A stretch of 23,457 nt of DNA, from IMG/VR virus record IMGVR_UViG_3300021420_000119, positions 1 to 23,457 of that record; one strand, written 5' to 3'. This document shows, in pieces, positions 4,627 to 23,457 of this stretch; the stretch's first letter is position 1; every line of letters begins with the position of its first letter. A model generated the notes under the pieces. The model saw only the letters and a list, made by a program, of their open reading frames with translations. It was not told where the DNA came from and made no database searches. The position numbers and the translations under genes were made by a program. Source of the stretch: a virus.

Positions 4627-5607
4627 ATGAGCGGCACCGGCGGCTTCCAGACGCAGGCTTACAACCAGCCTTCGATGGCCATCGCGGGGGACTTCTGCAG
4701 CCAGAACCCGTACTTCACGTTCGACGCCGGCCCCGGCGCCCTCGTCGCAGGCCTCGGCGGCGTAACCATCGGCCGCTTCGCCTGGGTGTACCCGCCGGAC
4801 GATCCGGACGGCACCGGCGCGATCGTTCTGAACAGCGGCTCCGGCCCGGTCTCCGGCTTCGTGCTGCGGCCCGGCCAGCCCGGCCTGATCACGCAGTTCC
4901 TCGCCGACGCCAGCATGGTGATCCAGCAGGGGTACGCGATGACGCTGGCCACCGGCGGCGACTTCTGGGTCGTCAACGACGGCACCACGCAGGCGCTCCC
5001 GCAGAGCCCCGGCCAGGCGGCGATGAAGGCCTACGCCAACCTCGCCACCGGCAAGGTCACCTTCGCGCTGACCGGCGCCCCGACGAACGCGGCGACCTCG
5101 ACGGCGTCCTCGATCGCGGCGGCCTCCTCGACGTTCACCGGCTCGATCTCCGGCGGCGTTCTGACCGTCACCACGGCACCGACGACGACGCTGCAGCCCG
5201 GCGCGACGCTCACCGGCACCGCGGGCACGATCCCGTCGACGACGCAGATCGTCTCGCAGCTCAGCGGTTCCGTCGGCGGCATCGGTACCTACCTGCTCAA
5301 CAACCCGGAGGGCAACTACGCCTCCGGCCCGCTCACGGCGACGTGGGGCATCCTCACCGTCGGCGGCACCCTCACCGGCACGTTCGCGGTCGGCGAGACG
5401 CTGTCCGGCACCGGCGTAGCGGCGAACACCAACATCACGGCGTTGGGCACCGGCACCGGCGGTGCCGGTACCTACATCGTGAACAACAACGCCGTAGTGG
5501 CGTCGTCCACGATCAACGTCGTCGGCAACGTGGAAACTAAATGGACGGCGATGTCGAGCGGCTTGCCTGGTGAGCTCGTCAAAATCTCAAGCCATCCTTT
5601 GGGCTGA
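4627..5607 (+). CDS. Capsid structural cement protein (Gp24-like) with two C-terminal beta modules
   Basis: Residues ~1-150 match phage structural cement/decoration proteins. The N-terminal GDFCSQNPYFTFDAGPGALV is followed by GVTIGRFAWV and SGFVLRPGQPGLITQFL, then a strand pattern that includes YAMTLATGGDFWVVNDG. Such proteins bind the capsid surface and stabilise the expanded shell. After a linker, two tandem beta modules follow (residues ~170-300; see repeat at 5134-5526), probably displayed on the outside of the head. The ATG follows GCAGGAGACCAAAAG, a strong ribosome site. The last ~75 bases switch to AT-richer codon use just before the GIY-YIG gene. The gene lies immediately before the endonuclease and the major capsid gene, the usual cement-capsid order. 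Confidence 0.8.
   Translation: MSGTGGFQTQAYNQPSMAIAGDFCSQNPYFTFDAGPGALVAGLGGVTIGRFAWVYPPDDPDGTGAIVLNSGSGPVSGFVLRPGQPGLITQFLADASMVIQQGYAMTLATGGDFWVVNDGTTQALPQSPGQAAMKAYANLATGKVTFALTGAPTNAATSTASSIAAASSTFTGSISGGVLTVTTAPTTTLQPGATLTGTAGTIPSTTQIVSQLSGSVGGIGTYLLNNPEGNYASGPLTATWGILTVGGTLTGTFAVGETLSGTGVAANTNITALGTGTGGAGTYIVNNNAVVASSTINVVGNVETKWTAMSSGLPGELVKISSHPLG
5134..5526 (+). repeat. Tandem A-B pair of GSI-G-LTV/GTY beta modules (cement protein)
   Basis: Module A starts FTGSISGGVLTV and ends near GGIGTYLLNN. Module B starts WGILTVGGTLTG and runs through LSGTGVAANTNIT to GTGGAGTYIVNN. The same A-linker-B arrangement recurs in the sheath gene (14117-14499). The 18 bases GGCGGCATCGGTACCTAC are identical in both genes. 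Confidence 0.85.
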
Positions 5608-5623
5608 TAGGTAACGCGCGGCC

Positions 5624-6331
5624 ATGAACAAGTTCTACGTCTACGAGCATTGGCGGCCGGATAAGAACGAACCCTTCTACGTCGGAAAGGGATCGGGAAG
5701 CCGCGCTTGGAAGATCGGTCGCGCGAAGAATCCCTACTACGCGAACGTCGTCGCGAAACTGGCTGCGATCGGCTTGTGCGTCGAGGTAAGGCTCGTCGTG
5801 GGCGAGATGACCGCAGAACAGGCTTACGATGCAGAGATCAATCGCATCGCGTTCTGGCAGGCAAAAGGCGTCAAGCTGACGAACCAGACCGCTGGTGGCG
5901 AAGGAATGCTCAATCCTTCGGACGAGCTGCGGGCGCGCTTTGCTGAAATTTCGCGCTCTCGGCCGCGAACGCCGGAATTTTGCGCCAAAATGTCCAAGGC
6001 AGCCAGCAATCAATCTGCCGAGACGCGGGCAAAGCGCAGCGCCTCAATGACCGGCATCGTCCGTTCCGAGAAGACGAAGCTGAAAGTCAGTCGCTCCAAG
6101 AGCGATCCTCCGGCTGAAACTCGCGAACGGAACAGGCTGGCGGCCAAGCTGAGTTGGGAAGATCCTGAATGGCGAGCCAATCAGGTTGCGGCGCGCCTGG
6201 GAGTAATCCGCATCACTGACGGCGTCGAGAACAAGACCGTCAGACTGGTCGGGGAAGAAATCCCGACAGGATGGCGGCGCGGGATGACCAAGCGTCGGGC
6301 TCTCGTTGCCCATAATGGAGAAGCGACATGA
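5624..6331 (+). CDS. GIY-YIG homing endonuclease with NUMOD-like tail
   Basis: A 235-aa free-standing nuclease. The GIY-YIG core reads FYVYEHWRP then PFYVGKG (residues 4-23), with the expected catalytic Glu at E71 (AEINRI) and Asn at N87 (LTNQTAGGEG). Residues ~105-170 hold NUMOD3-like DNA-binding repeats (KMSKAASNQSAETRAKRS, SASMTGIVRSEKTKLK). The C-terminus has the RITDGVENK ... GEEIPTGWRRG element common in phage-borne endonucleases. It sits between cement and major capsid, and its stop overlaps the capsid gene's ATG as ATGA. The gene is clearly less GC-rich than its neighbours, as expected for a mobile insertion. Likely role: cutting endonuclease-free relatives at the cement/capsid junction to spread itself. 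Confidence 0.9.
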   Translation: MNKFYVYEHWRPDKNEPFYVGKGSGSRAWKIGRAKNPYYANVVAKLAAIGLCVEVRLVVGEMTAEQAYDAEINRIAFWQAKGVKLTNQTAGGEGMLNPSDELRARFAEISRSRPRTPEFCAKMSKAASNQSAETRAKRSASMTGIVRSEKTKLKVSRSKSDPPAETRERNRLAAKLSWEDPEWRANQVAARLGVIRITDGVENKTVRLVGEEIPTGWRRGMTKRRALVAHNGEAT

Positions 6332-7419
6332 ACTTGACCGAGGCTCGGACGCAGTGGCAGCAGGACAAGCCGGTCCACGAGTCCAGGGGCGTCTACCTCC
6401 CCGGCGTCACGATGTACCTGCCGGACGAGTGGAAGCGCAACTTCCAGCTCGCGATGGACGCGCAGCCGACGCTGTCCACCGACCCCAGCTCGGCGATCCC
6501 GTCGCTCCTGACGACGGTGATCGACCCGAAGGTCATCCGCATCGTCTTCACGCCGCTGAACTTCGCGAAGATCCTGACGGAGCAGAAGAACGGCGGCTGG
6601 CTCGAGGAAACCCGCATCTTCCCGGTCGTCGAGGAAACCGGCGAGGTGTCGAGCTACGGCGACTTCAACAACAACGGCCGCGCCGGCGTCAACCTGAACT
6701 TCCCGAACTTCCAGGCCTACCTCTTCCAGACCTTCGTGCGCTACGGCGAGCGCGAGCTGGAGCGGGCCGGGCTGGCGAAGATCAACTACGTTAGCGAGCT
6801 TGAGGTATCGGCGGCGGATCTGCTCAACCGCTACCAGAACCTCAGCTACGCCTTCGGCATCTCGGGCCTGCAGAACTACGGCATCATCAACAACCCGTTC
6901 CTGTCGGCCTACGTGACCCCGGCGACCAAGGCGGCCGGCGGCACGTCCTGGTTCGTCGGCGGCGCGCCGAACGCCACCGCCAACGAGGTCTACAACGACA
7001 TCGTCGCGCTGGTGGAGCGCATGATCGGCCAGACCAACGGCACCGTGGAGCTCGACGACGACATGACGCTCGTCATGGGCCCGTCGAGTTCCGTGGCGCT
7101 GACTTTCGCCAACACCTTCGGCGTCAACGTCAAAGACCTTCTGAAGGACAACTACCCCAAGATGAAGATCATGACGGCGCCGCAATACGCGCAGCAGACC
7201 GCCAACAACCCGCAGGGCTACTCGACGGCCGGCAACGCGATGCAGCTCATCGTCAAGTCCATCGCGGGCCAGGAGGTCGCCTACGCAGCGTTCAACGAGA
7301 AGCTCCGCGCCCACAAGATCATCCCTGAGCCGTCGGCGTGGCAGCAGAAGATGACGTCCGGCAGCTGGGGCACAATTTTGAGGCTTGTACTCGGTGTCAC
7401 GGGGATGCTCGGAATCTAA
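6328..7419 (+). CDS. Major capsid protein (DUF2184-type)
   Basis: A 363-aa protein of HK97-fold major capsid size. Features match the DUF2184/major capsid group: SAIPSLLTTVIDPKVIRIVF near residue 55, the ETGEVSSYGDFNNNGRAGVN segment near 105 and GISGLQNYGIINNP near 180. A C-terminal stretch AYAAFNEKLRAHKIIPEPSA leads to a closing SGSWGTILR ... GMLGI. It assembles the icosahedral shell, with the cement protein and the scaffold encoded upstream. The start overlaps the GIY-YIG stop (ATGA), so capsid synthesis may be partly coupled to translation of the endonuclease gene. The terminal ~45 bases are AT-richer than the body although no endonuclease follows. Confidence 0.9.
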   Translation: MNLTEARTQWQQDKPVHESRGVYLPGVTMYLPDEWKRNFQLAMDAQPTLSTDPSSAIPSLLTTVIDPKVIRIVFTPLNFAKILTEQKNGGWLEETRIFPVVEETGEVSSYGDFNNNGRAGVNLNFPNFQAYLFQTFVRYGERELERAGLAKINYVSELEVSAADLLNRYQNLSYAFGISGLQNYGIINNPFLSAYVTPATKAAGGTSWFVGGAPNATANEVYNDIVALVERMIGQTNGTVELDDDMTLVMGPSSSVALTFANTFGVNVKDLLKDNYPKMKIMTAPQYAQQTANNPQGYSTAGNAMQLIVKSIAGQEVAYAAFNEKLRAHKIIPEPSAWQQKMTSGSWGTILRLVLGVTGMLGI

Positions 7420-7447
7420 TCAGAAACTTTAGACGGAGAGATTGAAA

Positions 7448-8023
7448 ATGCCCGCGCCGCAGAAGAAGCAGCCGACCGCCGCCGAGGCGGCCGTCCTCGC
7501 CGCGCCGCACAAGCCGACGCCAGGACAGGGCTCCAAGAGCTACGCCGGCGACAAGGTCACCGTGTGCAGCAAGCTGCCGTTCGCGCTGGAGATCCAGCGC
7601 TGCGAGAAGCGGCCGCAGAGGATGACGCACCGCGGCGAGGCCTGGATCGAGGAGGTCGCCTACAAGGTCGGGCCGATCGCCGTCATCGCCGGCAACAACT
7701 ACCCCGTCGGCGCGCCGCCTGAAGGTACCGTCTGGCCGGACCGCCCGCAGATGGCGAACGGCTTCGCGATGACCTTCGGCGTCGACCGCGACCTCTGGGA
7801 GAGCTGGCTCGAGGACAACAAGGAGAACCCGTTCGTCAAGAACGGCCTGATCTTCGCGCAGCCCAGCGTCGATGACGCCAAGGCGCAGGCCCGCGACAAC
7901 CGCGACCGCGACAGCGGGCTGGGCCCGCTGAAGCCCGACACCGACCGCCGGATGCCGAAGAAGTTCCGGCCGAACCCGATGGGCCGGCCCGCCGCCGACG
8001 CGGAACTGACCGCGGCAGAGTGA
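7448..8023 (+). CDS. Conserved phage protein following the capsid gene
   Basis: A 191-aa protein starting at an ATG preceded by GGAGAG. Residues ~35-150 (KVTVCSKLPFALEIQ, then GFAMTFGVDRDLWESWLEDN and NPFVKNGLIFAQPS, ending SGLGPLKPDTDRR) match an uncharacterised family often found directly downstream of the major capsid in contractile-tail phages. The N- and C-terminal tails are Ala/Pro-rich and probably disordered. A connector or head-tail joining role would fit the location between capsid and DUF4054, but I know of no demonstrated function. Confidence 0.75.
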   Translation: MPAPQKKQPTAAEAAVLAAPHKPTPGQGSKSYAGDKVTVCSKLPFALEIQRCEKRPQRMTHRGEAWIEEVAYKVGPIAVIAGNNYPVGAPPEGTVWPDRPQMANGFAMTFGVDRDLWESWLEDNKENPFVKNGLIFAQPSVDDAKAQARDNRDRDSGLGPLKPDTDRRMPKKFRPNPMGRPAADAELTAAE

Positions 8024-8033
8024 CGGGGGCCGC

Positions 8034-8534
8034 ATGGGCCCTCCCGCCGTCCCGACGGTCGTCTTCGACTACCCGACCTGGATCGCTCAATTTCCGGAGT
8101 TCAGCGGCTGCTCGCCGGCGCAGGGGCAGGGCTGGTTCAACCGGGCCTCGCTGATGTTCGCCAACGCCGGCTGGACCGGGGCGCTGCCGCAGGCGCCGAC
8201 GCTGCTCTACCTCCTGACCTCGCACATCGGCTGGCTCAACGCGCCGCGCGACGCCAACGACATGCCGGCCTCGGCCGGCCAGCCAGCGCCGCCGCTGGTC
8301 GGGCGCATCAGCAACGCCAGCGAGGGGTCGGTCTCGGTGCAGGTCGACATGGGCGATGCCAACGCGGCTAGCCCGTCGCAGGCTTGGTACGAACAGACAA
8401 AGTGGGGTGCGGAATTTTTTGCGTTCTGTGCCCAATTTAGAACAGCTCGATATGCAGCAAGGCCGAGCCCGATGCCAGTCGGAGGCAGCTATCCCTTCTA
8501 TCGCCCAGGCTGGGGCAGAGGAAATTATTGGTAA
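8034..8534 (+). CDS. Head completion/adaptor protein (DUF4054)
   Basis: A 166-aa protein with the DUF4054 layout: FDYPTWIAQFPEFSG near the start, LLYLLTSHIGWLNAP near residue 60, GRISNASEGSVSVQVDMG near 88 and a C-terminal WYEQTKWGAEFFAFC then YAARPSPMPVGG. Members act as head-to-tail connector adaptors binding the portal ring. The body uses GC-rich codons, but from about 8391 the codon use changes: 8401-8460 has only 28 G/C of 60. This coincides with the approach to the HNH gene 50 bases downstream. A Gly/Pro/aromatic C-terminal end (RPGWGRGNYW) closes the protein. Confidence 0.8.
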   Translation: MGPPAVPTVVFDYPTWIAQFPEFSGCSPAQGQGWFNRASLMFANAGWTGALPQAPTLLYLLTSHIGWLNAPRDANDMPASAGQPAPPLVGRISNASEGSVSVQVDMGDANAASPSQAWYEQTKWGAEFFAFCAQFRTARYAARPSPMPVGGSYPFYRPGWGRGNYW

Positions 8535-8560
8535 CAACTTGCTGGCCGATCTAATATAAT
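8531..8560 (+). promoter_or_regulatory. Putative sigma70-type promoter for the HNH gene
   Basis: A perfect TATAAT at 8555-8560 has GTAACA (4 of 6 matches to TTGACA) 18 bases upstream at 8531-8536. It ends 25 bases before the HNH ATG, with GGGGAAAG as ribosome site in between. It lies in the 51-base gap between DUF4054 and HNH, one of few gaps in the operon. Independent transcription of the endonuclease is inferred. Confidence 0.4.
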
Positions 8561-8585
8561 TCCCTGTCTATCGGGGAAAGCAAAA

Positions 8586-9368
8586 ATGCCGGCCTTCAGA
8601 GACTTGACTGGCCTAACCTTCGGCCACCTAACTGCGATCCGGCGCGTCGCGAATAATAAGACGAAAGTTCGGTGGCTTTGGCGCTGCCAATGCGGCGTTG
8701 AACGAGAAGCCGACGCTTATCAAGTAACAGCGGAACGTCGAATTTCCTGCGGATGCCAATCACCAAATCGCCTCATTGATCGAACCGGACAGCATTTCGG
8801 CCGTTGGGTAGTTTTGAAGCCATCGTCAGGAAGACGCGGATATTCGCTATGCCGCTGTGAGTGCGGTACCGAACGCGATGTTTATGATGCAAATCTAAAA
8901 AACGGAACGAGCAAAGGTTGCGGCTGCATTGATATGAGCGGTGACAACAATCCGATGCGGCGTGCGGTCAAGAAGAAGCATGGCGAAAACTACGTCCAAA
9001 AGGGGACGCCTTGGTATAGACAGGCGGCCGGTATATTCGCGCGCTGTAGGGCTGGTAGCATTGAGATAGGTTTCGAATCTATCTGCGAACTGGCCACCTA
9101 TCTGATACAGATTGCGCCGGAACGATGCCCGGTCTTCGATGTCCCCTTCTCTCGCGGAGAAGCCGGATTTTCGCCATTTGCACCAAGTGCAGATCGGAAG
9201 GACAACTCTAAAGGCTATGTACGCGGCAACATCCAGATCATGTCCTTCAAGGCGAACAGCATGAAGGCCAATGCCTCCGCCGAGGAGATGAAGCTGTTCG
9301 CCGATTGGGCCGCCCGCCAGAATCAGAATCCATACGACAACGCCGGATGGTCCGCAGGATTGACGTGA
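8586..9368 (+). CDS. HNH homing endonuclease with duplicated Cys-rich DNA-binding repeats
   Basis: A 260-aa protein. Two N-terminal repeats each begin with L/R-TG--FG and carry Cys pairs: C34/C36 with C55/C57, and C89/C91/C93 with C112/C114. These look like paired zinc- or AP2-associated DNA-binding units of phage endonucleases. The C-terminal nuclease has CPVFDVPFSRG at ~181-191, then SADRKDNSKGYVRGN (201-215) and IMSFKANSMKANAS, the HNH/endonuclease VII-like signature. Codon use and GC are clearly unlike the flanking virion genes. Its stop TGA overlaps the next ATG (TGATG). Likely a free-standing homing endonuclease inserted between two head-tail joining genes. Confidence 0.88.
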   Translation: MPAFRDLTGLTFGHLTAIRRVANNKTKVRWLWRCQCGVEREADAYQVTAERRISCGCQSPNRLIDRTGQHFGRWVVLKPSSGRRGYSLCRCECGTERDVYDANLKNGTSKGCGCIDMSGDNNPMRRAVKKKHGENYVQKGTPWYRQAAGIFARCRAGSIEIGFESICELATYLIQIAPERCPVFDVPFSRGEAGFSPFAPSADRKDNSKGYVRGNIQIMSFKANSMKANASAEEMKLFADWAARQNQNPYDNAGWSAGLT

Positions 9369-9817
9369 TGGCTACAATTTCCGGTGGGAAAAAATTGGAG
9401 GCCGCGCTCGCGAAAATATCTCGCGGCGTAAGCCAGCCGGCGACGCTGCGGGTCGGCTTCCTCGCCGGGGCGACCTATCCGAACGGTACGCCGGTCGCGA
9501 TGATCGCGGCGATCCAGGACTTCGGCGCGCCGTCCCGCGGGATCCCGCCGCGGCCGTTCTTCCGCAACATGGTGAAGGCCAAGAGCAAGGAGTGGCCGAA
9601 GGCGATCGCGGACCTGCTCAAGGCCAACGACTACGATGCGGTGAAGACTTTGGAGACTACGGGCGAGGCCATCGGCGGGCAGTTGCGGCAGAGCATCATC
9701 GACACAAATAGTCCACCGTTGGCGCCGAGCACGATCAAGCGCAAGGGCTTCGCCAAGCCGCTGATCGATACGTCCGTTATGATCAACAGCATCGGCCACG
9801 AGGTGAAGACGTCGTGA
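9368..9817 (+). CDS. Tail completion / head-tail connector protein (HK97 gp10-like)
   Basis: A 149-aa protein with the pattern of this family: LRVGFLAGATYPNGTPVAMI, a RPFF motif in PPRPFFRNMV, and PPLAPSTIKRKGFAKPLIDT near the C-terminus. These proteins cap or join tail and neck during assembly. The ATG at 9368 forms TGATG with the HNH stop. Its first ~65 bases are AT-richer than the rest, mirroring the altered 3' end of DUF4054 on the other side of the HNH gene. It ends with a GTGA overlap into the next gene. Confidence 0.75.
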   Translation: MATISGGKKLEAALAKISRGVSQPATLRVGFLAGATYPNGTPVAMIAAIQDFGAPSRGIPPRPFFRNMVKAKSKEWPKAIADLLKANDYDAVKTLETTGEAIGGQLRQSIIDTNSPPLAPSTIKRKGFAKPLIDTSVMINSIGHEVKTS

Positions 9818-10407
9818 ACCTGCACAGCATCGTCGCCGGCGCGGTGGGCGCCGTGAACCCGAGGATCTTCGTCGCGGCGAGGGTCAGCGTCGGCCAGACG
9901 GCGGCCGCCGATGGTACGCCGCAGCCGGCCTACGCGACGCCGGGATCGTTCGTCGGCAGCATCGCGGGCAACACTCTGACGGTGGCGTCGGTGGCCGCTG
10001 GCGTGCTGCAGCCCGGCCAGGCGGTCTTCGACGGCTCCGGCGCGGTGCTGCCGGGGACCACCATCGTCGGGCTCGGCAGCGGCGGTGGCGGCCCGGGCAC
10101 CTACACGGTGAGCGAGGAGCAGAACGTCCCGCTGATCGCGATGCAGTCGTCGCTGACGCTCCTGGCGCAGGCGCAGGCGCTGAGCGGCCGCGACTTGAGA
10201 CAAGTAGAAACGCTCAACTTGCAGGGCGTACTCAAAACTTTCTACGTGAATGGCGCACTCGATGGCGGCGTACGGGTAGAACTCAAGGGTGGCGACGTTC
10301 TGACGCTCTCCGATGGCAGCGTCTACTTGGTCACGTTGGTACCGGAGCCTTGGGCGTTGACGGCGGGGTGGACAAAAATAATTTGTACGCTCCAGGCGGG
10401 GAGCTGA
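9814..10407 (+). CDS. Neck protein with an inserted beta module
   Basis: A 197-aa protein with a GTG start overlapping the previous stop. The two ends match an uncharacterised neck/tail-joining phage family: NLHSIVAGAVGAVNPRIFVA and QPAYATP at the N-terminus, then AQALSGRDLRQVETLNLQG, VYLVTLVPEPW and WTKIICTLQAGS at the C-terminus. Relatives run directly from the AYA segment into the Q-LS--DLRQ segment. Here a module (residues ~46-114) sits exactly between them, so it is a loop insertion rather than a terminal addition. The last ~200 bases (10195 onward) are AT-richer although no endonuclease follows directly. Confidence 0.7.
   Translation: MNLHSIVAGAVGAVNPRIFVAARVSVGQTAAADGTPQPAYATPGSFVGSIAGNTLTVASVAAGVLQPGQAVFDGSGAVLPGTTIVGLGSGGGGPGTYTVSEEQNVPLIAMQSSLTLLAQAQALSGRDLRQVETLNLQGVLKTFYVNGALDGGVRVELKGGDVLTLSDGSVYLVTLVPEPWALTAGWTKIICTLQAGS
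9949..10155 (+). repeat. Single GSI-G-LTV/GTY beta module inside a neck protein
   Basis: The module reads FVGSIAGNTLTV, then VLPGTTIVGLG and GGPGTYTVSEEQN. Bases 9952-9983 match 12143-12174 in the neck terminator gene at 31 of 32 positions, suggesting recent copying or strong homology between the two genes. Confidence 0.8.
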
Positions 10408-10409
10408 CT

Positions 10410-10981: not shown

Positions 10982-10992
10982 GGATTTCCCAG

Positions 10993-11214
10993 GTGGACGT
11001 CTGCACGCTGATCGTCGCGACGACCATGACGCTGCAGCTTTGCACGCGCGTCGACTGCCGGCCGACGGCCGACGGCACGAAACAGCTCTGCCAGACCTAC
11101 TCGAGCTGCGCCGCGGTTCGATACCCGACCTACGAGTGCAAGCGCCCCGACGGCTCGACGTACACCTTCGAGGACAAGACCTTCGAGGGCAATACCGTCG
11201 CGGTGTCGAATTGA
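10993..11214 (+). CDS. Cys-rich small protein, possibly exported
   Basis: A 73-aa protein with GTG start at 10993 (AAGGAT at its upstream side) and a stop overlapping the TTG start of the HNH-AP2 gene. The N-terminus MDVCTLIVATTMTLQLCTRV is hydrophobic and could be a signal or anchor. Six cysteines follow a spaced pattern (C4, C17, C22, C33, C39, and one in YECKRPDG near 50), as expected for a disulfide-stabilised exported domain. It directly follows the signal-peptide protein, which fits a pair of exported products. No function is assigned. Confidence 0.6.
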   Translation: MDVCTLIVATTMTLQLCTRVDCRPTADGTKQLCQTYSSCAAVRYPTYECKRPDGSTYTFEDKTFEGNTVAVSN

Positions 11215-11696
11215 CCGCGATCATCCCAACATTAACAGTAGAACGACTTCGAAAGATTTTGTTCTACGCTCCAGAAACTGGCCTTTTCACACGTAATATA
11301 GGCGGCATAGCCGGGAGTTTACGTAAAGACGGCTATTGGTGGATCATGATTGATGGTCAGAGATACTTTTCTCATCGCCTTGCGTGGTTCTATATGACGG
11401 GCGAATGGCCAATTGCCGATCTTGATCATAAAAATAGCAACAAAAGCGATAATCGTTGGGCAAATCTCCGACAAGCATCAAGATCGCAGAATAACTCCAA
11501 TGCGCGAATTTACAAGAACAATACGAGCGGATTCAAAGGAGTAAGCTGGCATAAGGCGCGCGGGAAATGGGTAGCTCGGATCATGGTCGATAAGCGATCA
11601 TTTTCTCTTGGTTACTTTGATTCTGCCGAAGAGGCTTATTCTGCCTATTGTATAGCGGCACCCAAATATCATGGCGAATTTGCGAGGGTCGCGTGA
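11211..11696 (+). CDS. HNH endonuclease with AP2 DNA-binding domain
   Basis: A 161-aa protein. The N-terminal segment LTVERLRKILFYAPETGLFT is the standard start of phage HNH-AP2 endonucleases, so the frame must begin upstream of the first ATG (11347). The only suitable start is TTG at 11211, overlapping the previous stop (TTGA). The HNH core is SHRLAWFYMTGEWP, LDHKNSNKSDNRWANLR (D72/H73) and ASRSQNNSN. The AP2 domain occupies residues ~103-160: NNTSGFKGVSWHKARGKWVA, SLGYFDSAEEAYSAYCIAA, HGEFARVA. Codon use is AT-rich and unlike the neighbours. It ends with a GTGA overlap into the neck terminator gene. Confidence 0.88.
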   Translation: MTAIIPTLTVERLRKILFYAPETGLFTRNIGGIAGSLRKDGYWWIMIDGQRYFSHRLAWFYMTGEWPIADLDHKNSNKSDNRWANLRQASRSQNNSNARIYKNNTSGFKGVSWHKARGKWVARIMVDKRSFSLGYFDSAEEAYSAYCIAAPKYHGEFARVA

Positions 11697-12676
11697 CAAT
11701 TTCTATTTCGCCCAGCCAATCAAATGTTCAGCAGGCGCTCCTCGCCTTCCTATCCCAGGTACTGCCGGGCCTGCCCGGCCAGGCGCCGGCGGTGTTCGTC
11801 GGCTCGATCGCCGGCAACGTGCTTACCGTCGCGGCGCTGCCCGGCAAGGTCCCCGTCGGCATCCAGGGAACGGTCCAGCTCAACGCGCCGCTGCTCGGCC
11901 TCGGCGTGGCGCCGGGGACGACGATCGCGGCGCAGCTCACCGGGCCCGCCGGCGGCGCCGGCACCTATCAGGTCTCGATCGCGCAGACCGTGGCGCAGGC
12001 CACGATGTCGACGGGGGTCTCGGCGGTGCCAGGCCAGGCCAACCGGGTGCCGGAGCCAGTCAACCCCTTCTTCGCCGTGGCGACGCCGATCAGGATCGAC
12101 CGGCTGGCGACCAACGTCGACGGCTCGGCGGACGTGAAGCTGGTCGGCAGCATCGCGGGCAACACGCTGACGGTCTCCCAGGTCATCGCCGGGCAGCTCG
12201 AGGTCGGCGCCGCGCTCTTCGGCACCGGCGTCGCGGCGAATACCGTGGTGACCGGGGTATCGGTAACCGCCGGCGGTCCAGGCGCCTACGCCGTCTCGCC
12301 GGCGCAGATCGCGGCACCGCAGACGATGTCGGCCGGGGCCAAGACGCTGACGCAGTCGGCGGAGGTCACGATCCAGGTGGATTTTCACTCCAGCGACAGT
12401 ACGGCTGGCGACTTCGCGCAGACCGTCTCGACATGTTTGAGAGATTCTTTTGGGGTCGATTTTTTTGCAGCTCTTGCCCCGCCCCTAAATGGCGTCGTTC
12501 CACTTTATGCGGATGATCCTAGGCAGGTCGGGTTCCAAAATGCAGAACAACAATGGGAATTTCGATGGAGTTTGGACGTTTGCTTGCAGATTTATCAGAC
12601 CGTTAGCGTCAACCAACAGTATGCAGATTCGGCTCAGATTGAGCTAATCGACGTTGACGCCGAATTTCCGCCTTGA
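11693..12676 (+). CDS. Neck/tail terminator protein (gp12-like) with two inserted beta modules
   Basis: A 327-aa protein from a GTG overlapping the HNH stop. The N-terminus MTISISPSQSNVQQALLAFL, middle QANRVPEPVNPFFAVATPIR and C-terminal core (QSAEVTIQVDFHSSDSTAGD, LYADDPRQVGFQNAEQQWEF, RWSLDVCLQI) match phage neck terminator proteins, which close the tail-proximal neck. Two modules interrupt this core, at residues ~35-108 and ~150-215. From ~12370 to the end the codon use shifts sharply: 12421-12480 has 29 G/C of 60 and includes a 7-T run. The last 68 bases overlap the antisense GIY-YIG gene. Confidence 0.78.
   Translation: MTISISPSQSNVQQALLAFLSQVLPGLPGQAPAVFVGSIAGNVLTVAALPGKVPVGIQGTVQLNAPLLGLGVAPGTTIAAQLTGPAGGAGTYQVSIAQTVAQATMSTGVSAVPGQANRVPEPVNPFFAVATPIRIDRLATNVDGSADVKLVGSIAGNTLTVSQVIAGQLEVGAALFGTGVAANTVVTGVSVTAGGPGAYAVSPAQIAAPQTMSAGAKTLTQSAEVTIQVDFHSSDSTAGDFAQTVSTCLRDSFGVDFFAALAPPLNGVVPLYADDPRQVGFQNAEQQWEFRWSLDVCLQIYQTVSVNQQYADSAQIELIDVDAEFPP
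11795..12337 (+). repeat. Two separated GSI-G-LTV/GTY modules in the neck terminator
   Basis: Copy 1 (11795-~12016) reads FVGSIAGNVLTV to GGAGTYQVSIAQTVA. Copy 2 (12140-~12337) reads LVGSIAGNTLTV, FGTGVAANTVVTG, then GGPGAYAVSPAQ. They are split by ~40 residues of the host fold (NRVPEPVNPFF... region), so each is an independent insertion rather than a tandem duplication. Confidence 0.82.
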
Positions 12677-13514
12677 GCCGACGCGCCTCCAACATCGCCG
12701 CCCGCCGAACAGGGTCTGCCCAGACATCTTTCATGGCGATGCCGTGCTTTACAGAAAAGGAAGGCCCATGCTGCTTCGCGCGATATTCTGGATTTGTCCA
12801 AAGCTCTTTAGTCGTCTGACTTCGCTGCGCAGCCACATCATTATCGTTGGCTCTTTCTCTAAATTTGGCGACCGTAACCGCACGATAGTCTGGGTCCGCC
12901 CACTGATCTTTCTTAATCGTTCGTTTCTTCTCCAAGGCTTCACCGGATTGAGTACCCTTCAGTCTTTCGCCATGCTCAATCCTAGATTCCTCAGTAGCGA
13001 ATCGCTCTAATTGTCCCTTTCTCATGTTGGCGCGGGCGGCGATACTCGGAGGTTTAGGGCCGCGCTTCTCAAGGGTAGCCTTAAATGTTGCTACTCTTTT
13101 GGTACGCGTTTCGGCCGATTCTTTTCGACCCTTGGAATTTTGGTTTCCTAGATTTGCCGCTCGTAGTTTCGCTCTTGTCTGTGATGATTTCGGTAATCCA
13201 GACGTTCCCTCACCGCCAGCTGTAGCATTGACCAAAGGCCCATCGTTTCCTCTTCCTATCGCGGCTATAAAAGCGGCCTCTATCGCGAAGGCCTCCGCCT
13301 CAGTCAAATTGTCGCGAATTTTCAAGCATGGTACCTCAAGGCCCAACTCGCGAGCCTTATTGATGACCGCCAAAAAATGCTTGTTCGCAAATCGCGGTTT
13401 TGGCCTTCGGTGGTGCAGCCATCGGTCGCCCTTCCCCTTGCCGACGTAGAGCGGCGACCCGTCCCAGGGGCGGAAAAGCACGTAGACGTAGAAGCATCGG
13501 CCGGGGTCTGGCAT
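12609..13514 (-). CDS. GIY-YIG homing endonuclease, antisense to the operon
   Basis: A 301-aa protein on the minus strand. The GIY-YIG core is CFYVYVLFRPWDGSPLYVGK (residues 7-26) with catalytic Glu E79 (FAIEAAFIAAI) and Asn N96 (LVNATAGGEG). NUMOD3-like repeats follow (KSSQTRAKLRAANLGNQNSK, RKESAETRTKRVATFKAT). The C-terminal half has three spaced repeats of the form K--W-DP-YRA (DQWADPDYRA, ELWTNPEYRA, DVWADPVRRA) and a basic end. It is the only gene against the operon direction. Its 3' end overlaps the neck terminator by 68 bases, and its start faces the sheath gene across a 98-base gap (13515-13612) in which I found no clear promoter. Confidence 0.88.
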   Translation of the reverse strand: MPDPGRCFYVYVLFRPWDGSPLYVGKGKGDRWLHHRRPKPRFANKHFLAVINKARELGLEVPCLKIRDNLTEAEAFAIEAAFIAAIGRGNDGPLVNATAGGEGTSGLPKSSQTRAKLRAANLGNQNSKGRKESAETRTKRVATFKATLEKRGPKPPSIAARANMRKGQLERFATEESRIEHGERLKGTQSGEALEKKRTIKKDQWADPDYRAVTVAKFRERANDNDVAAQRSQTTKELWTNPEYRAKQHGPSFSVKHGIAMKDVWADPVRRAAMLEARRLKAEIRRQRRLAQSEPNLHTVG

Positions 13515-13612: not shown

Positions 13613-15580
13613 ATGTCGACCATCCCGGCCAACACCATCGTTGACGTCGTTCCCAGCGTGCTCGCAGCTGGCGGTACCGGGCTCACCGGCGTCGGCCTCG
13701 TACTTACCCACAACACCCGCCTCCCCGTCGGCACGGTTCAGAACTTCGCCGCCCCCGCCGGCGTTTCCGCGTTCTTCGGCCCCAGCGACCCGCTCACGAC
13801 GACCGCCGGCTTCTACTTCGCCGGCTTCCAGGGCGCCTCGATCCAGCCGGCGTCGCTGCTGATGGCGCAGTTCCCGCAGACCGCCGTCGCCGCCTACCTG
13901 CGCGGCGGCAACATCTCTGGTCTGACGCTGCCGCAGCTCCAGGCCATCAACGGCGTGCTGACGGCGGTATTCGACGGCTACAGCCGCAGCGGCACCGTCA
14001 ACCTCGCCGCGGCGACCAGCTTCTCCAACGCCGCCTCGCTGATCCAGACCGCGCTGAACTCCGCGCTGCCGAACGAGTCCAGCGTCACCGGCTCGATCGC
14101 CCCGCAGACGGCGAGCTTTACCGGATCGATCGCAGGGAACGTCCTCACCGTAACGGCCGTCGCCGCCGGCCCGATCGTCGCCGGCGGCGCGCTCAGCGGC
14201 TCGAGCGTCGCGGCGAATACCGTAGTCAGCGGCCAGCTTACCGGCACGCCGGGCGGCATCGGTACCTACGCGGTTTCGCAGCCACAGATCCTCGCCTCCG
14301 AGGCGCTCACCGAAACCTACGGCCTGCTCAGCGTGACCGTGGTCGGTTCAGGAGCGCCGGCCGTCGGGCAGGCGCTGTCCGGTACCGGGGTCTCGGCCAA
14401 CACCTCGATCGTCTCGCTGGGTACCGGCACCGGCGGGACCGGGACGTATTACGTCAGCCCGTCGCAGACGGCGCCGTCGCAGACCATCACCGGCGCCGCG
14501 ATCGCGGCCGCTGTTACCTACGATTCCGTCTCCGGGGCGTTCGTCGTCACGTCGGGCGTTACCGGGCCGTCCTCGACGGCCGCCTTCGCCTCTGGCGCCG
14601 CGGCGGCGCTGCTGCTGCTGACGTCCGCCACCGGGGCGGTACTGTCGCAGGGCGCCGCACCCCAGACGCCATCTGCCTTCATGACGGCGCTGATCGGCCA
14701 GAACGTGAACTGGGTCAACTTCATGACCCACTTCGACCCCGACGGCGGCTCCGGCAACGCGGTCAAGCAGCAGTTCGCGGCGTGGAAGAACACGGCGCTG
14801 GGCGGCAACCGCTTCGGCTACTTCTGCTGGGACCCGGACGGCAGCCCCGCGGCGACGAGCCCGGCGGCGGCGAGCCTCGGCCAGATCCTCAAGGCCAACG
14901 GCGACAGCGGCACGCTCCTGATCTGGGAGGGCGCGTCGGGCGGCAACCCCGCAGCGACCGTCGACAACGGGCTCTGCGCCTTCGCGCTCGGCCTCGCCGC
15001 CTCAGTCAACTACCAGCAGACCAACGGCCGTACCGACTTCGCCTTCCGCCAGGGCGCCGGCCTCGTCGCGAACGTTACCGACATCAACACGGCGACGAAC
15101 CTGCTGGCCAACGGCTACTGCTTCTACGGCGCCTACGGTGCGGCGAACGCCTCGTACGTCTGGTTCCAGAACGGGCAGATCACCGGCCCGTTCGCCTGGG
15201 CGGACAGCTTCGAGACGCAGGTCTGGCTGAACAACCTCTTCCAGATCACGCTGCTGACGCTGTTCGCGAACTCGCTGTCGGTGCCGTTCACCAACGCCGG
15301 GATCGCGCTGCTCCAGCAGGCGCTCCAGTCCGTCATCGACCAGGGCCTCGCCTTCGGCGCCTTCGCCCCGAACACGCTGACGGCGTCGCAGGTCGCGCAG
15401 GTCAACGCCGCCGCCGGGGCCAACATCGCCGGCTCGCTGCAGAGCCAGGGCTACTACCTGCAAATCCTGCTGCCGCCGCAGACGGTCCAGGCGGCGCGGG
15501 GCCCGTGGTCAATGGTTTTCTTTTACATCGACCGCAATAGTGTTCAACAAATAGACCTGTCGTCTGTATTGGTCCAATGA
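13613..15580 (+). CDS. Tail sheath protein (DUF3383-type) with tandem beta modules
   Basis: A 655-aa protein. ATG 13613 was chosen for its site (AGGGGAGACT seven bases upstream) over an upstream in-frame start at 13562. The N-terminal IPANTIVDVVPSVLAAGGTG, the FAAPAGVSAFFGPSDPLTTT segment and the C-terminal part (LFQITLLTLFANSLSVPFTN, VIDQGLAFGAFAPNTL, YYLQILLPPQTVQAARGP, SVQQIDLSSVLVQ) match the DUF3383 contractile sheath family. Sheath subunits stack around the tube and contract to drive it through the envelope. Modules at residues ~169-295 are inserted in a domain likely to face outward. The last ~75 bases become AT-rich just before the HNH gene, with which the stop overlaps (ATGA). The tube gene follows that endonuclease. 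Confidence 0.85.
   Translation: MSTIPANTIVDVVPSVLAAGGTGLTGVGLVLTHNTRLPVGTVQNFAAPAGVSAFFGPSDPLTTTAGFYFAGFQGASIQPASLLMAQFPQTAVAAYLRGGNISGLTLPQLQAINGVLTAVFDGYSRSGTVNLAAATSFSNAASLIQTALNSALPNESSVTGSIAPQTASFTGSIAGNVLTVTAVAAGPIVAGGALSGSSVAANTVVSGQLTGTPGGIGTYAVSQPQILASEALTETYGLLSVTVVGSGAPAVGQALSGTGVSANTSIVSLGTGTGGTGTYYVSPSQTAPSQTITGAAIAAAVTYDSVSGAFVVTSGVTGPSSTAAFASGAAAALLLLTSATGAVLSQGAAPQTPSAFMTALIGQNVNWVNFMTHFDPDGGSGNAVKQQFAAWKNTALGGNRFGYFCWDPDGSPAATSPAAASLGQILKANGDSGTLLIWEGASGGNPAATVDNGLCAFALGLAASVNYQQTNGRTDFAFRQGAGLVANVTDINTATNLLANGYCFYGAYGAANASYVWFQNGQITGPFAWADSFETQVWLNNLFQITLLTLFANSLSVPFTNAGIALLQQALQSVIDQGLAFGAFAPNTLTASQVAQVNAAAGANIAGSLQSQGYYLQILLPPQTVQAARGPWSMVFFYIDRNSVQQIDLSSVLVQ
14117..14499 (+). 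repeat. Tandem A-B pair of beta modules in the sheath
   Basis: Module A reads [18 protein letters not shown] to GGIGTYAVSQPQ. The linker is LTETYGLLSV. Module B reads VGQALSGTGVSANTSIVSLG to GGTGTYYVSPSQ. The order, linker and wording parallel the cement protein pair at 5134-5526, pointing to a shared two-module cassette. Confidence 0.85.
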
Positions 15581-16350
15581 TGAGAACTTGCAGAGATTGC
15601 GGCATTGAAATTTCTGGACGCTCGCCACGCTGCGATGCTTGCAGAACTGCGCGCCGTCGGCAGCAAGAATATGAGGCCAATGTTCGGTATTGCGCGAGAC
15701 ATCCAGAACGGAAAAAAGCATCTTTCAAAAAGTTTTATGATGCAAATGCCGATGCGATGCGAGCGCGTCGGAGGGATTATGGAGCCGCAAACAAGGAAAA
15801 GGAAGCTTTAGCAGCCGCTCGCAGGCGCGCAGAGAATCTCGACGAAATCTTGGAACGAGAGCATCTTCTCAGACTTGAACAGCCTGACCGATTCAAAAAA
15901 TATCGCCGCACTCATTACGAGAAGCATCGCGAAAAAATCTTGGAACGGGGCCAGAAATACAAGGCCGCAAATTACGAAAGGTTGCTGGCTTACGCAGCCG
16001 ACTATTGGCGCGATCATCCAGAATTAAACCGCGCACATGCTGCAAAGCGACGTGCGGCGGAGAAGCGTGCGATGCCAATCTGGGCCGACTTCGACAAGAT
16101 GCTGGCCTTCTACAAGGAGGCGGTTCGGTTGACGCGCGAGACCGGCATCCCGCATCACGTCGATCACATCTACCCGCTTCAATCGAAAACTGTTTGCGGC
16201 TTGCATTGCCATACCAATCTTCAAGTCGTTCCGGCTACGGTGAACCTACGGAAGAAGAATCGCGTTCCAGAACTTGACGAGCTACCGCGCTGCTGCGCGT
16301 GGCCTTCCATCGTTCACTTCGAGGCTTCGAGAGGAATTATGCCATGCTGA
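15577..16350 (+). CDS. HNH homing endonuclease with N-terminal zinc ribbon
   Basis: A 257-aa protein starting ATGATG, overlapping the sheath stop. Residues 5-22 form a Cys4 ribbon (CRDCG ... CDACR). A long Lys/Arg/Glu-rich helical middle (~25-165) holds loosely repeated K-YYEKH/KFYDAN-type units, a likely DNA-contacting linker. The HNH core lies near the C-terminus: HHVDHIYPL at ~193, then VCGLHCHTNLQVVPATVNLR. The gene is AT-rich compared with sheath and tube. Its final bases overlap the tube gene's ATG. A likely free-standing homing endonuclease inserted between sheath and tube, two genes that are normally adjacent. Confidence 0.88.
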   Translation: MMRTCRDCGIEISGRSPRCDACRTARRRQQEYEANVRYCARHPERKKASFKKFYDANADAMRARRRDYGAANKEKEALAAARRRAENLDEILEREHLLRLEQPDRFKKYRRTHYEKHREKILERGQKYKAANYERLLAYAADYWRDHPELNRAHAAKRRAAEKRAMPIWADFDKMLAFYKEAVRLTRETGIPHHVDHIYPLQSKTVCGLHCHTNLQVVPATVNLRKKNRVPELDELPRCCAWPSIVHFEASRGIMPC

Positions 16351-16772: not shown

Positions 16773-16784
16773 AAAGGTGCGTCC

Positions 16785-17443: not shown

Positions 17444-17452
17444 GGAGAGCCC

Positions 17453-18895: not shown

Positions 18896-18896
18896 G

Positions 18897-19499: not shown

Positions 19500-19807
19500 T
19501 GCAGACGATCCTCGCGCAGGCCGTCCCGAACCAGCAGATGAGCTGCCAGCTCGGCGCGCAGTCCGTCACGCTCATCATCACGCAGATGGCCTACGGCCTC
19601 TTCATGACGATCGCCGTGGCCGGGGTCACGATCCTCAACAACGCGCCGTGCCAGAACCTCAATCGCGTCGTCCGCGACGCCTACCTCGGCTTCGTCGGGG
19701 ACTTCTTGTGGTTCGACACCCAGGGCAGCAGCGACCCGGTGTACACCGGGATAGGCACCCGCTACCAACTGCTCTATCTATCCCCGGCGGACCTCGCGGC
19801 GGGCTGA
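19499..19807 (+). CDS. Baseplate plug protein (Pam3 gp18-like)
   Basis: A 102-aa protein. ATG 19499 was chosen because it forms TGATG with the previous stop and has AAGGA 8 bases upstream; ATG 19490 is the alternative. The sequence pattern (AVPNQQMSCQLGAQSVTLII, YGLFMTIAVAGVTILNNAPC, then FVGDFLWFDTQG and YQLLYLSPADL) fits the small beta-barrel plug family first seen in the cyanophage Pam3 baseplate. It would close the hub channel before contraction. It stands just before the hub gene. Confidence 0.72.
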   Translation: MQTILAQAVPNQQMSCQLGAQSVTLIITQMAYGLFMTIAVAGVTILNNAPCQNLNRVVRDAYLGFVGDFLWFDTQGSSDPVYTGIGTRYQLLYLSPADLAAG

Positions 19808-19808
19808 C

Positions 19809-20864
19809 GTGACGACGCAGATCACCATCCCGGCAACGCACTTCGCTACCGCCGAAACCCCGCAGCTGACGACCTTCGCGAGGCAGCCCAGCTTTACGCA
19901 GAAGCTGCTGAACTTCGCGGTTACCCTGGACCCGACGGCGAACGGCCAGTCGAACAGCTTCGCCGAGCTCAACGGGCTGCCGACCTCGGGGACCTTCAAC
20001 ATATCCGGCGCCCGCGCCCGCTGCAGGATCACCAACGCCGGGGCGCCGGCCGGGGGCATGGCCGACATAACGCTCTACGGCCTCTCGCTGAGCCTGATGT
20101 ACCAGCTCGCCACGCTGGGCGTCGTCGTCGATTCGGTCTCCAAGAACCAGATCATCGTCAGCGCCGGCGCGTCGAGCCTGCCCGACGCCTCCTCGGCCAA
20201 CGCGGCGCAGACGCCGGCGGGGGGATTTCCGGTCGTGTTCGGCGGCACGATCTGGTTCGCCTACGGCGACTACAGCAACATGCCGGAGACGCCGATCCGC
20301 ATCATCGCGCAGGCCGGCCTCATCAACGCCGTGAAGTCGGCGGCGCCGGCGAGCTATACCGGGCCGACGTCGATCGTCTCGATCATGGAGAGTTTCGCGC
20401 AGCAGCTCGGAGTGCCGCTGGAGAACAACGGGGTAGATGGGACGTTGGCGAGTCCGTACTTCCCCGGAACGGTGCTGCAGCAGGTCTACCAGGCGGCCGA
20501 GCACGCCAACATCAGGGCGCTGCTGGTCGACGGCGGTACCAAACTCGCGATCATGCCGAAGAACGGGTCGCGTACGTCGCTGACCAACATCCCCCTGATC
20601 TCGAAGGGCACCGGGATGGTTGGATCGCCGTCGTTCGCCCAGACCGGCTGGCTCGTCGTGAAGATGGTCTACAACCCGGACGTCGCCTTCCTCGGCAACA
20701 TCCAGGTGGAGAGCGCCGTCGTGCCGCAGGCGAACAAGACGTGGACGGTCTTCAAGCTCGACCTCGCGCTGGACACGCTGCTGCCAGACGGCGACTGGGT
20801 GGCGACCGCGCTGTGCTACCCCAAGGGCGTCAACGCACCGGCACCGCCTGTGGTGACGCAATGA
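19809..20864 (+). CDS. Baseplate hub protein
   Basis: A 351-aa protein from GTG 19809, one base after the plug stop. Motifs expected of phage hub proteins (gp27/Mu gp44/D-like) are visible: NISGARARCRITNAGAPAGG with MADITLYGLSLSLMYQLATL, VVFGGTIWFAYGDYSNMPET, PIRIIAQAGLI, TSIVSIMESFAQQLG, and a C-terminal PLISKGTGMVGSPSFAQTGW. The hub links the tube to the spike and centres the baseplate. It ends by overlapping the spike gene (ATGA), which fits their direct interaction in the virion. Confidence 0.78.
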   Translation: MTTQITIPATHFATAETPQLTTFARQPSFTQKLLNFAVTLDPTANGQSNSFAELNGLPTSGTFNISGARARCRITNAGAPAGGMADITLYGLSLSLMYQLATLGVVVDSVSKNQIIVSAGASSLPDASSANAAQTPAGGFPVVFGGTIWFAYGDYSNMPETPIRIIAQAGLINAVKSAAPASYTGPTSIVSIMESFAQQLGVPLENNGVDGTLASPYFPGTVLQQVYQAAEHANIRALLVDGGTKLAIMPKNGSRTSLTNIPLISKGTGMVGSPSFAQTGWLVVKMVYNPDVAFLGNIQVESAVVPQANKTWTVFKLDLALDTLLPDGDWVATALCYPKGVNAPAPPVVTQ

Positions 20865-21556
20865 GCGACTTCGGCTACGGCCAGATAGGCCCCGACGATG
20901 GCGCCACCGACCTCAATGCCGTGGCCGCGGTAGTAAGGCAGCTCGTCGCGCGCATCGACTCGATGAAGCTGGTCAAGGTCGTCGGGGTGCACGCGGGGTC
21001 GGGCTCCCCGCCGGCCGTCGGCACCGTCGACGTCCTTCCGCTGGTGAGCCAGATCGACGCCAACGGCTACGTCGTCCCGCACGGCACCGTGTACGGCCTC
21101 CAGTATTGGCGCTTCCAGTTCGGCCCATGGGCGATCGTCGCCGACCCCGCCGTCGACGACGTCGGCTACGTGGTCTGCGCCGACCGCGACTCCTCAGCGG
21201 TAGCGAAGAACTTGGGCCAGACCGTCGCCCCCGGCTCGCGGCGCCGCTACAACATCACCGACGGCCTCTACGTCGGCGGCTGCCTCAACCCAGTGCCCGC
21301 CGCTACGCTCCAGCTGAAGCCGGACGGCACATGGGTTCTCACCGACAAACCCGGGAACGTGCTACAAGGCGACGCGAACGGAATCACGGCGACGCCGACC
21401 AGCGGGAAGCCGTTCAAGGTGAGCGGCAACCTCCAGGTGACCGGCACCATCGCGTCGGGCGAAGGCGGGGGCGACCAGGTGAGCCTGCAGACCCATACCC
21501 ACAGCGGCGTCCAGACCGGCGGCGGAACGTCCGGGCCGCCGACGCCGGGGAGCTGA
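20861..21556 (+). CDS. Baseplate central spike protein (gp45/gpV-like) with HxH apex
   Basis: A 231-aa protein. The N-terminal part (QLVARIDSMKLVKVVGVHAG, GTVDVLPLVSQIDANG, YGLQYWRFQFGPWAIVADPA, then DVGYVVCADRDSSAV) is the OB-fold (Gp138_N-like) spike domain. It is followed by a beta-helix-type stretch (VLQGDANGITATPTSGKPFK) and a C-terminal apex QTHTHSGVQTGG. The HxH is the iron-binding tip motif of contractile-tail spikes. The spike trimer pierces the outer membrane on sheath contraction. Confidence 0.85.
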   Translation: MSDFGYGQIGPDDGATDLNAVAAVVRQLVARIDSMKLVKVVGVHAGSGSPPAVGTVDVLPLVSQIDANGYVVPHGTVYGLQYWRFQFGPWAIVADPAVDDVGYVVCADRDSSAVAKNLGQTVAPGSRRRYNITDGLYVGGCLNPVPAATLQLKPDGTWVLTDKPGNVLQGDANGITATPTSGKPFKVSGNLQVTGTIASGEGGGDQVSLQTHTHSGVQTGGGTSGPPTPGS

Positions 21557-21560
21557 CGGG

Positions 21561-21944
21561 ATGTACAGCAGCTTCCTCCTCGACACCGCGGTATGGGACC
21601 TCCTCGTCGACGCCAACGGCAACATGGCGGTGGCGTCGGAGCCGTACTCGCTGGCGCAGGACGCCGCGTCCGCGATCCAGACCTACCTCGGCGAGTATTA
21701 CTGGGACATCACGGTCGGCGTGCCGTGGCTGACGCAGATCCTCGGCCAGTCGCCGTCGCTGGCCCTGCTGAAGGCGCAGCTCGCCGAGACCGCCGTCGGC
21801 GCCAACCCCGACATCGCCTCGGCGACGGTCTTCATCTCGTCGTTCAACAACCGCGTCGTAACCGGCCAGGTTCAGATCGTCTCGGCGGCCGGCCAGACGG
21901 CGGCGGCCAACTTCGGCGTCGTCAACCTGCAGGGGAGCGGGTAG
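21561..21944 (+). CDS. Baseplate wedge protein, gp25-like
   Basis: A 127-aa protein of gp25/Mu gp46 size. Motifs: LLVDANGNMAVASEPYSLAQ with DAASAIQTYLGEYYWD, then GVPWLTQILGQSPSLALLKA and TAVGANPDIASATV. gp25-like proteins anchor the first sheath ring to the baseplate and form the base of the wedge. Its stop directly abuts the J-like gene start (TAG ATG), the conserved gp25-J order. Confidence 0.85.
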   Translation: MYSSFLLDTAVWDLLVDANGNMAVASEPYSLAQDAASAIQTYLGEYYWDITVGVPWLTQILGQSPSLALLKAQLAETAVGANPDIASATVFISSFNNRVVTGQVQIVSAAGQTAAANFGVVNLQGSG

Positions 21945-23457
21945 ATGGCGAACATCGGCACCACCAATACGCCGGCCATCGCATGGGGCCCGAACGGCCC
22001 GCAGGCGCCGTCCCCCCCGGCCATCCTCGTCGGCGTGCAGCAGGACTTCAACGTCGCCTTCAACGTCACCTTCAACTGGAATGGCGTCACCCCGCAGGGG
22101 CAGCTGACCTCGACCCTCGCGGCGGTCCTCGCCAACTACAACGCGGTAATGGTCTACTACGCGACGCAGGTCGACCCGGCGTACTCGCAGGGCCGGATGC
22201 AGGACGCGATCTGCCGCATCAACTTCCTCACCCGCAACCCGGCCAACTCGACGGTGCTGCAAGTCTCCTGCTCCGGCGCCGGGGCCAACATCCCGGCCGG
22301 GCCGCTCGCCTACGGCACCGTCGTCGACCCGTCCGGCAACCTTTACCAGTGTACCGGGGCCGGGACGCTCCCCGCCGGCGGCGGCTCGATCACGCTCTCC
22401 TTCGCGGCGGTGAACACCGGGCCGATCGCGGTGCCAAACTCGGTGAAGATCTACCGGGCGATCCCGGGGTGGGATTCGGCCGCCGTCGTCTCCGGCGTCG
22501 TGGGAAACAACACCGAAACCTCGCAGCAGTTCGAGCTGAGGCGGCGGAACTCCGTCGCTGCGACCGCGCGCAACAGCAACGGCGCCATCCTCGGCGCGGT
22601 GCTCTCGGTCCCCGGCGTACTCGACGCCTACGTCATCGACAACCCCTCGAACAACCCGCTGACGGTCGGCGGCTTCACCCTGGCGGCGCGCTCGATCTAC
22701 GTCGCGGTCACCGGCGGCGCGGCGCAGGCCGTCGGCAACGCGATCTGGACCAAGAAGCCGCCCGGCATCCCGATGAACGGTAACACGTCGGTCACCGTGA
22801 CGGACCAGAACCCGGGCTACTCGCCGCCGTTCCCGTCCTATACGATCACCTGGGAGACCCCGGCCGCGCTGCCGGTCTACTTCAACGTAACCATCGCCAG
22901 CTCCGCTCTGGTGCCGGCCAACGCTGCGGCGCAGATCCAGAGCGCCATCGTCAACGCCTTCAACGGGGCGAATACGGGGGCGAGCTTTACCGGCTCGATC
23001 TCTGGCAACGCCCTCACCGTCACCGCCGTAGCCGCCGGCACCGTCGCCGTCGGCCAGGCGCTTTCCGGCGCCGGCGTGGTACCGGGGACGACGATCGCGG
23101 GACTGCTGACCGGCGCCGGCAACGCCGGGACGTATACGGTCAGCCAGCCGCAGAACGTCGCATCGACCGCGATGACGACGACGCCGACGACGAACCTGAC
23201 GGTACCGCCGAAGGCCAGGATCGGCTCGACGATCTACGCCAGCCAGTACGGCGCCGTCGTCGCCGCTCTGGGGTCGTGGGCGGCGGTCAAGTCGATCCTG
23301 TGCGGCTCCGCCAACGACTCCGATGCGGCGTCCGTAGTCGGTTCCATCTCGGGTGCGACGCTGACGGTAAGGTCCGTCACCTCCGGGGCGCTGACCGTCG
23401 GGCAATGGCTTACGGGGTTCGACTCCGTCGCCGGCATCTCCGTCGGGACGACGATCA
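21945..23457 (+). CDS. Baseplate wedge protein J (gp6/Mu gp47-like), 3'-truncated by window, with beta modules
   Basis: Open from ATG 21945 to the window end (504 codons), no stop reached. Residues ~75-340 show J-like features: [40 protein letters not shown], an [10 protein letters not shown](N) segment, [55 protein letters not shown] proteins with gp25 form the baseplate wedge that triggers sheath contraction. From residue 348 a module starts ([12 protein letters not shown]), and a second starts at residue 464. The part between them ([20 protein letters not shown]) looks like resumption of the J C-terminal fold, so the modules are again insertions. Confidence 0.85.
22986..23457 (+). repeat. 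Two beta modules in the J-like protein, the second cut by the window end
   Basis: Copy 1 (22986-~23182) reads [51 protein letters not shown], the closest to the consensus. Copy 2 starts at 23334 ([35 protein letters not shown]) and is incomplete. Confidence 0.82.

Follow-up and report, generated by a model that had tools for sequence, protein, structure and literature searches.

Nine copies of one small module are distributed over the decoration protein, two neck proteins, the tail sheath and the baseplate wedge J encoded in the window, i.e. the whole stretch of 23,457 bases of a virus record that was analysed here and whose gene set runs from head to baseplate. Among relatives of this contractile-tailed soil phage the module occupies fixed loops of the same five proteins as a whole unit, and it may serve weak contacts of the particle with its surroundings, a reading which we put forward tentatively. 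When each copy was scored against a profile of the other eight, 28-88 bits were obtained (Table 1), the top score among 500 shuffles per copy being at most 14.4 bits, and pattern scans and profiles revealed no module in any other ORF of the window. A preliminary description of this DNA had counted at least nine copies over positions 5134 to 23457, two each in cement, neck2, sheath and J and one in neck1; the profiles bear out both number and distribution, and the span is right, with the first copy beginning near 5125. Of the motif it had assigned to the copies, the GSI-G start is lacking in the second copies of cement and sheath, which are degenerate at this end. The window ends within the last copy, whose counterpart in a relative, G001, is complete. 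Relatives bear a third module in J, and the true copy number of the window phage is therefore probably at least ten.

The names given earlier to the five host proteins agree with PHROG and Pfam profiles, with gene order and with a model of cement. The order of genes in the window corresponds to that in Aeromonas phage 2_D05, Acinetobacter phage AP22 and Pantoea phage PA-1. The AlphaFold2 model of full-length cement (pLDDT 88) resembles the solved decoration proteins of T1, FCWL1, Pa193 and Pam3 (all prob 1.00, best E 0.002), and neck2 reached 58.3 bits against the PF23961 neck terminator profile, above the curated cut-off of 27. The sheath was identified by its match to the DUF3383 profile together with a gene position as in annotated relatives, and solved homologues exist for the sheath (E217 gp31) and for J (E217 gp44, E 3e-17). 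At the position of the head maturation protease, a single ORF (1217-3142) combines a NUDIX domain with DUF2213.

Table 1. Module-bearing proteins and module copies in the window; scores are those of each copy against the profile of the other eight.
Feature	Position	Strand	Score (bits)	Remarks
Cement, capsid decoration protein	4627..5607	+		phrog_2122 minor head protein; bears modules 1 and 2
Module 1 (cement copy 1)	5125..5343	+	45	
Module 2 (cement copy 2)	5320..5532	+	56	degenerate start
Neck1, head/collar protein	9814..10407	+		phrog_1912; module-free homologues exist; single inserted module
Module 3 (neck1)	9946..10155	+	71	
Neck2, neck/tail terminator	11693..12676	+		PF23961, NF047498; two modules at two separate sites
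Module 4 (neck2)	11786..12022	+	51	7-residue insert
Module 5 (neck2)	12134..12349	+	64	
Tail sheath	13613..15580	+		DUF3383 E 3e-87, phrog_205; tandem module pair in one loop
Module 6 (sheath)	14108..14320	+	77	
Module 7 (sheath)	14312..14506	+	56	degenerate start
Baseplate wedge J	21945..23457	+		phrog_6; cut by window end; modules at two sites
Module 8 (J site 1)	22977..23195	+	88	used for AlphaFold2 model
Module 9 (J site 2)	23325..23456	+	28	cut at window end; score of the part present

Alignment with module-free homologues, which included Burkholderiaceae prophages and three isolated phages among others, showed that modules are cleanly inserted in the five proteins, at seven loops in all: one site each in cement, neck1 and the sheath, where the copies stand in tandem, and two each in neck2 and J. 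Within cement, the modules sit between two β-strands of the C-terminal part, and for neck2 the alignment comprised homologues with no, one and two modules. A prophage of Paraburkholderia panacisoli has the sheath site and the first J site empty and a module at the second J site; the neck terminator of this prophage (strain DCY113) is module-bearing as well. The length of the insert is quantised, with about 72 aa per sheath module and next to nothing where the module is missing: the median sheath insert amounts to -9, 65, 137, 215 and 274 aa for zero, one, two, three and four modules, respectively, and the corresponding medians are 1 and 77 aa for J and 4, 75 and 155 aa for neck1. Only modules were found at these sites, and other types of insert were absent from the set of 312 loci described below.

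Since sampling on the module itself had to be avoided, these 312 viral loci, all of them relatives of the window phage, were chosen via the module-free parts of the sheath, the major capsid protein, cement and J. Modules were present in 476 of 675 distinct orthologues of the five outer proteins (cement 132/140, neck1 30/130, neck2 91/134, sheath 128/163, J 95/108), where distinct means a different ORF sequence and cut ORFs may be counted twice where two loci share a contig. From the same loci came 1,555 orthologues of a further 13 virion genes (protease, scaffold, major capsid protein, two additional neck proteins, tube, chaperone, tape measure, hub, spike, wedge and two others), and none of these orthologues had a module. 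The restriction to outer and neck proteins, with none in the inner proteins or the major capsid protein, strongly supports the initial view that the module is spread over the outward-facing layers of the virion. From the nature of the host proteins, rather than from coordinates, we infer that the insertion loops point outward. The ten modules found in a 128.8-kb relative all lie within the same five genes. Scans with the module profile found none in seven isolated relatives; of 300 Burkholderiaceae genomes 5 had modules, as did 4 of the 399 examined from the phylum. A different group of phages has the module in Hc3 (phrog_578), which is a head closure protein and again a connector (L004:5496-7607, L007:11331-13358), and in a relative, G003, a 1,602-aa ORF downstream of J (L108:9966-14771) that matches no PHROG or Pfam profile has two modules.

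The module is about 72 residues long. Among 95 copies scanned, none had a significant Pfam match, and NCBIfam yielded none either; a profile of the 95 copies gave no significant match to PDB sequences, and weak hits at E 0.06-0.9 were taken as chance. An AlphaFold2 model calculated from the 95 copies is all-β with a mean pLDDT of 89, and two further copies were modelled inside full-length cement. Together with the relationship at the profile level, these models support a single fold common to the copies, as had been anticipated, and on their basis the module can be confidently predicted to be a small, self-contained all-β domain that folds autonomously. Among solved structures, chain 1 of the capsid of phage Bridgette (8eci) comes closest in fold (E 0.015, prob 1.00, TM 0.66). 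Weaker matches in the PDB include F1-ATPase subunits, the matching part of which is the β-barrel domain. Among predicted viral proteins, 18 fold matches were obtained at E <0.001, in proteins with the names HK97 major capsid protein, P22 gp10-like, side tail fibre, J and pectate lyase as well as in Indivirus proteins named as collagen-like. In composition the module (30% Ser+Thr, 17% Gly, 3.2% charged, 0.2% Trp) departs from the rest of the same host proteins (17% Ser+Thr, 10.3% charged). Gly, Thr, Val and Ile make up most of the conserved positions, to which one Tyr (92/95) is added, and neither a conserved charged residue nor a conserved aromatic or charged patch was found across the 95 copies. 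To judge from the sequences, the conserved Gly, Thr, Val and Ile residues seem to be structural and look unlike those of typical lectin or CBM sites.

Mapped on a tree of the sheath core (FastTree, 150 rows), the presence of the module has changed at least 14 times in the sheath, 15 times in neck1, 13 times in neck2, 11 times in J and three times in cement. The closest copy was found in the same gene of another phage in 461 of 549 cases, and the top identity between modules of different proteins inside one virion was 74%; thus, the dispersal of the module is old, and recent copying within the genome was rejected. Over 45 close pairs, the median dN/dS was 0.146 for the modules and 0.141 for the rest of the proteins, and the comparison of the window with G001 yielded 0.22 and 0.24, respectively. 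The modules are under real purifying constraint, the same as that on their hosts, and the near identity of the two ratios (0.15 and 0.14) indicates that they are not neutral cargo. Between the window and G001, the modules of cement have diverged less (dS 0.17, dN 0.04) than the remainder of this protein (dS 0.47, dN 0.22), a pattern suggestive of recombination or conversion that took in the module block.

The limitation to outer proteins and the constraint on the sequence together argue for a function at the surface. The β-domain is inserted as a whole unit into fixed loops of the decoration protein, the two neck proteins, the sheath and J, has been gained and lost repeatedly, at times in tandem, and would be retained as an accessory surface domain. 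If the loops face outward, the modules could make many weak contacts of low specificity with the cell envelope, capsule, exopolysaccharide or another extracellular polymer, so that the entire virion would be slightly adhesive, as opposed to bearing a single dedicated ligand site. Such weak, multivalent contact of an exported accessory β-domain with material outside the particle is the mechanism best supported by our data, although we would advance it with some reserve. Against it stand the near absence of Trp, the low number of charged residues and the structural appearance of the conserved residues, as well as the nearest solved fold, which belongs to a capsid cross-linking protein and would be equally apt for cementing. 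Adhesion of the module to glycans or the cell surface, as raised at the outset, may occur, a view to which module-bearing surface proteins secreted by bacteria lend indirect support. The alternative raised with it, an adapter for one shared ligand, is unsupported: a specific ligand common to all layers predicts alike copies per virion, whereas copies in different proteins of the same virion resembled each other no more than did copies taken from separate virions (excess identity within virions 0.6 points, 95% interval -0.06 to 1.3, 878 pairs), and the sequences show no conserved aromatic or charged patch. It is conceivable, if rather doubtful, that in a large myophage lineage the virion represents a plug-and-socket system in which fixed loops of every outer structural protein are dedicated to this one exported, hitherto undelimited module and accept it alone, in none to four copies, so that the whole particle from head to baseplate would obtain a common, tunable surface property.

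A lateral cement, in which the modules would clamp neighbouring subunits of head, neck, sheath and baseplate and harden the virion like small decoration proteins, appears unlikely. It would accord with the closest solved fold being a capsid protein of Bridgette (8eci), which has dimeric capsid proteins bridging capsomeres (PMC13033339), with the location of most modules in the high-copy lattice proteins cement and sheath, and with the tail stabilisation that has been proposed for extra sheath domains (PMC9230969). However, relatives vary between zero and four copies per site with many gains and losses, the low-copy neck and J proteins bear modules as well, tandem copies of one protein are unmatched to each other, and the seven isolated relatives manage without any. 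The module is, furthermore, also part of secreted bacterial proteins. It was found in 11 of 199 genomes of the order Chitinophagales, in proteins which have FG-GAP repeats, Ig_7 or fn3 and, in three of four examined, a T9SS sorting domain; this occurrence speaks more for a domain of general use in extracellular contact or as a spacer than for a cement specific to virions. By fold, the module recurs in other viruses, namely in tail fibres, J proteins and fibre-like proteins, and nearly all its contexts in Chitinophagales and in these viruses are exported or at the surface. T9SS-sorted Chitinophagales proteins with one to five modules are encoded at L432:1276-8163 (minus strand), L435:5437-8586 and L088:4944-8120, the modules of the latter two lying inside the FG-GAP repeat region.

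It is quite unlikely that the modules form an inert coat or spacer, in which uncharged domains rich in Ser, Thr and Gly would, without binding, disperse virions and guard against their unwanted adsorption or recognition, and could also carry glycosylation. The high Ser+Thr and low charged content relative to the remainder of the proteins is in line with such a role, and aggregation at low cation concentrations has been described for T4 particles that lack Hoc (PMC7602432); the conservation of the module, however, exceeds what mere composition would call for, and selection acts on it as strongly as on the host cores. The modules might be docking sockets that anchor another phage protein, a fibre or appendage, so that one partner is attached all over the virion. 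A shared anchorage system has been suggested for the repeated paralogous domains of phage 0305phi8-36 (PMC2147016) and the modules are indeed placed in many outer proteins, but the copies of one virion lack the convergence expected from a common partner and secreted proteins of bacteria carry the module too, which renders this explanation improbable. Finally, the modules might be passengers, neutral or selfish, that permissive loops at the surface tolerate, as might be read from the recurrent gain and loss and from the many relatives without a module at one or another site; this reading is disfavoured as very improbable by purifying selection equal to that on the host cores (dN/dS ~0.15), by the old, site-specific lineages with same-gene nearest copies, and by sites that take this module and no other insert.

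Accessory β-domains on phages are already known as a kind. Ig-like domains of tailed phages are small, all-β and horizontally mobile, occur in fibres, baseplate, tail, head and decoration proteins, and have been proposed to make weak contacts with carbohydrates (PMC7602432, PMC9230969). The module is likewise predicted to be small, all-β and accessory; none of the 95 copies, however, matched Pfam Ig or FN3 models significantly (best Ig model Big_6, E 0.014, 3 members), and its best fold matches are the Bridgette capsid protein and F1-ATPase and no Ig structure. In contrast to the scattered Ig-like domains, a single type of module fills fixed loops of five proteins of one virion. Lactococcal 936 phages carry carbohydrate-binding modules on the neck passage structure, the major tail protein and Dit, with all three decorations in 1 of 113 phages and binding demonstrated for two modules (PMC6669499). 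These, too, decorate several layers of a single virion type, whereas here one homologous module, known from sequence, is present in five proteins, head and sheath included. The Bridgette protein ranks first among the solved fold matches (TM 0.66, although at E 0.015); it is a separate capsid protein of 124 aa, as opposed to a domain inserted in host proteins, and the 95-copy profile found no sequence match to it at E up to 10. PHROG 21413 (unknown) and PHROG 38233 (tail fibre) contain the module, with matches down to 9e-18 in the window proteins; they are, however, clusters of whole proteins in which it is neither named nor delimited. The part of a sheath survey considered here describes extra domains as β-rich and added to the core away from the tube, with proposed roles in adhesion or stability; that part covers Ig-like sandwiches of sheaths only and does not describe one module common to head, neck and baseplate (PMC9230969). 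In the literature searched, no published description of this module was found. New, then, are a delimited module on all outer layers of one lineage, its absence from the inner proteins, and quantised sites that are exclusive to it.

For years, Ig-like and CBM domains have been noted here and there on phages as accessory β-domains whose function is in doubt. The module described here, delimited as one unit, marks the outer proteins, and only these, of about 100 or more phages, and pairs with and without it are available at every site; thus, what such a domain does can be tested by removing or relocating one unit within a set of homologous proteins. The module profile can also be used to annotate surface position in uncharacterised phage proteins, and it links phage surfaces with secreted surface proteins of Bacteroidota.

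The window further contains, at its left end and upstream of the capsid genes, a TnpB-like protein with OrfB_IS605 and Cas12f1-like TNB domains (3-659). Five ORFs among the virion genes are likely selfish endonucleases (5624-6331, 8586-9368, 11040-11696, 12609-13514 on the minus strand and 15577-16350); the assignment is based on Pfam for the ORFs at 11040 (HNH_3 and AP2) and 12609 (LEM-3 GIY-YIG), and was made by eye for the remaining three. Several of the five directly adjoin module-bearing genes, and in locus L087 HNH-like ORFs flank the sheath and tape measure genes as well.
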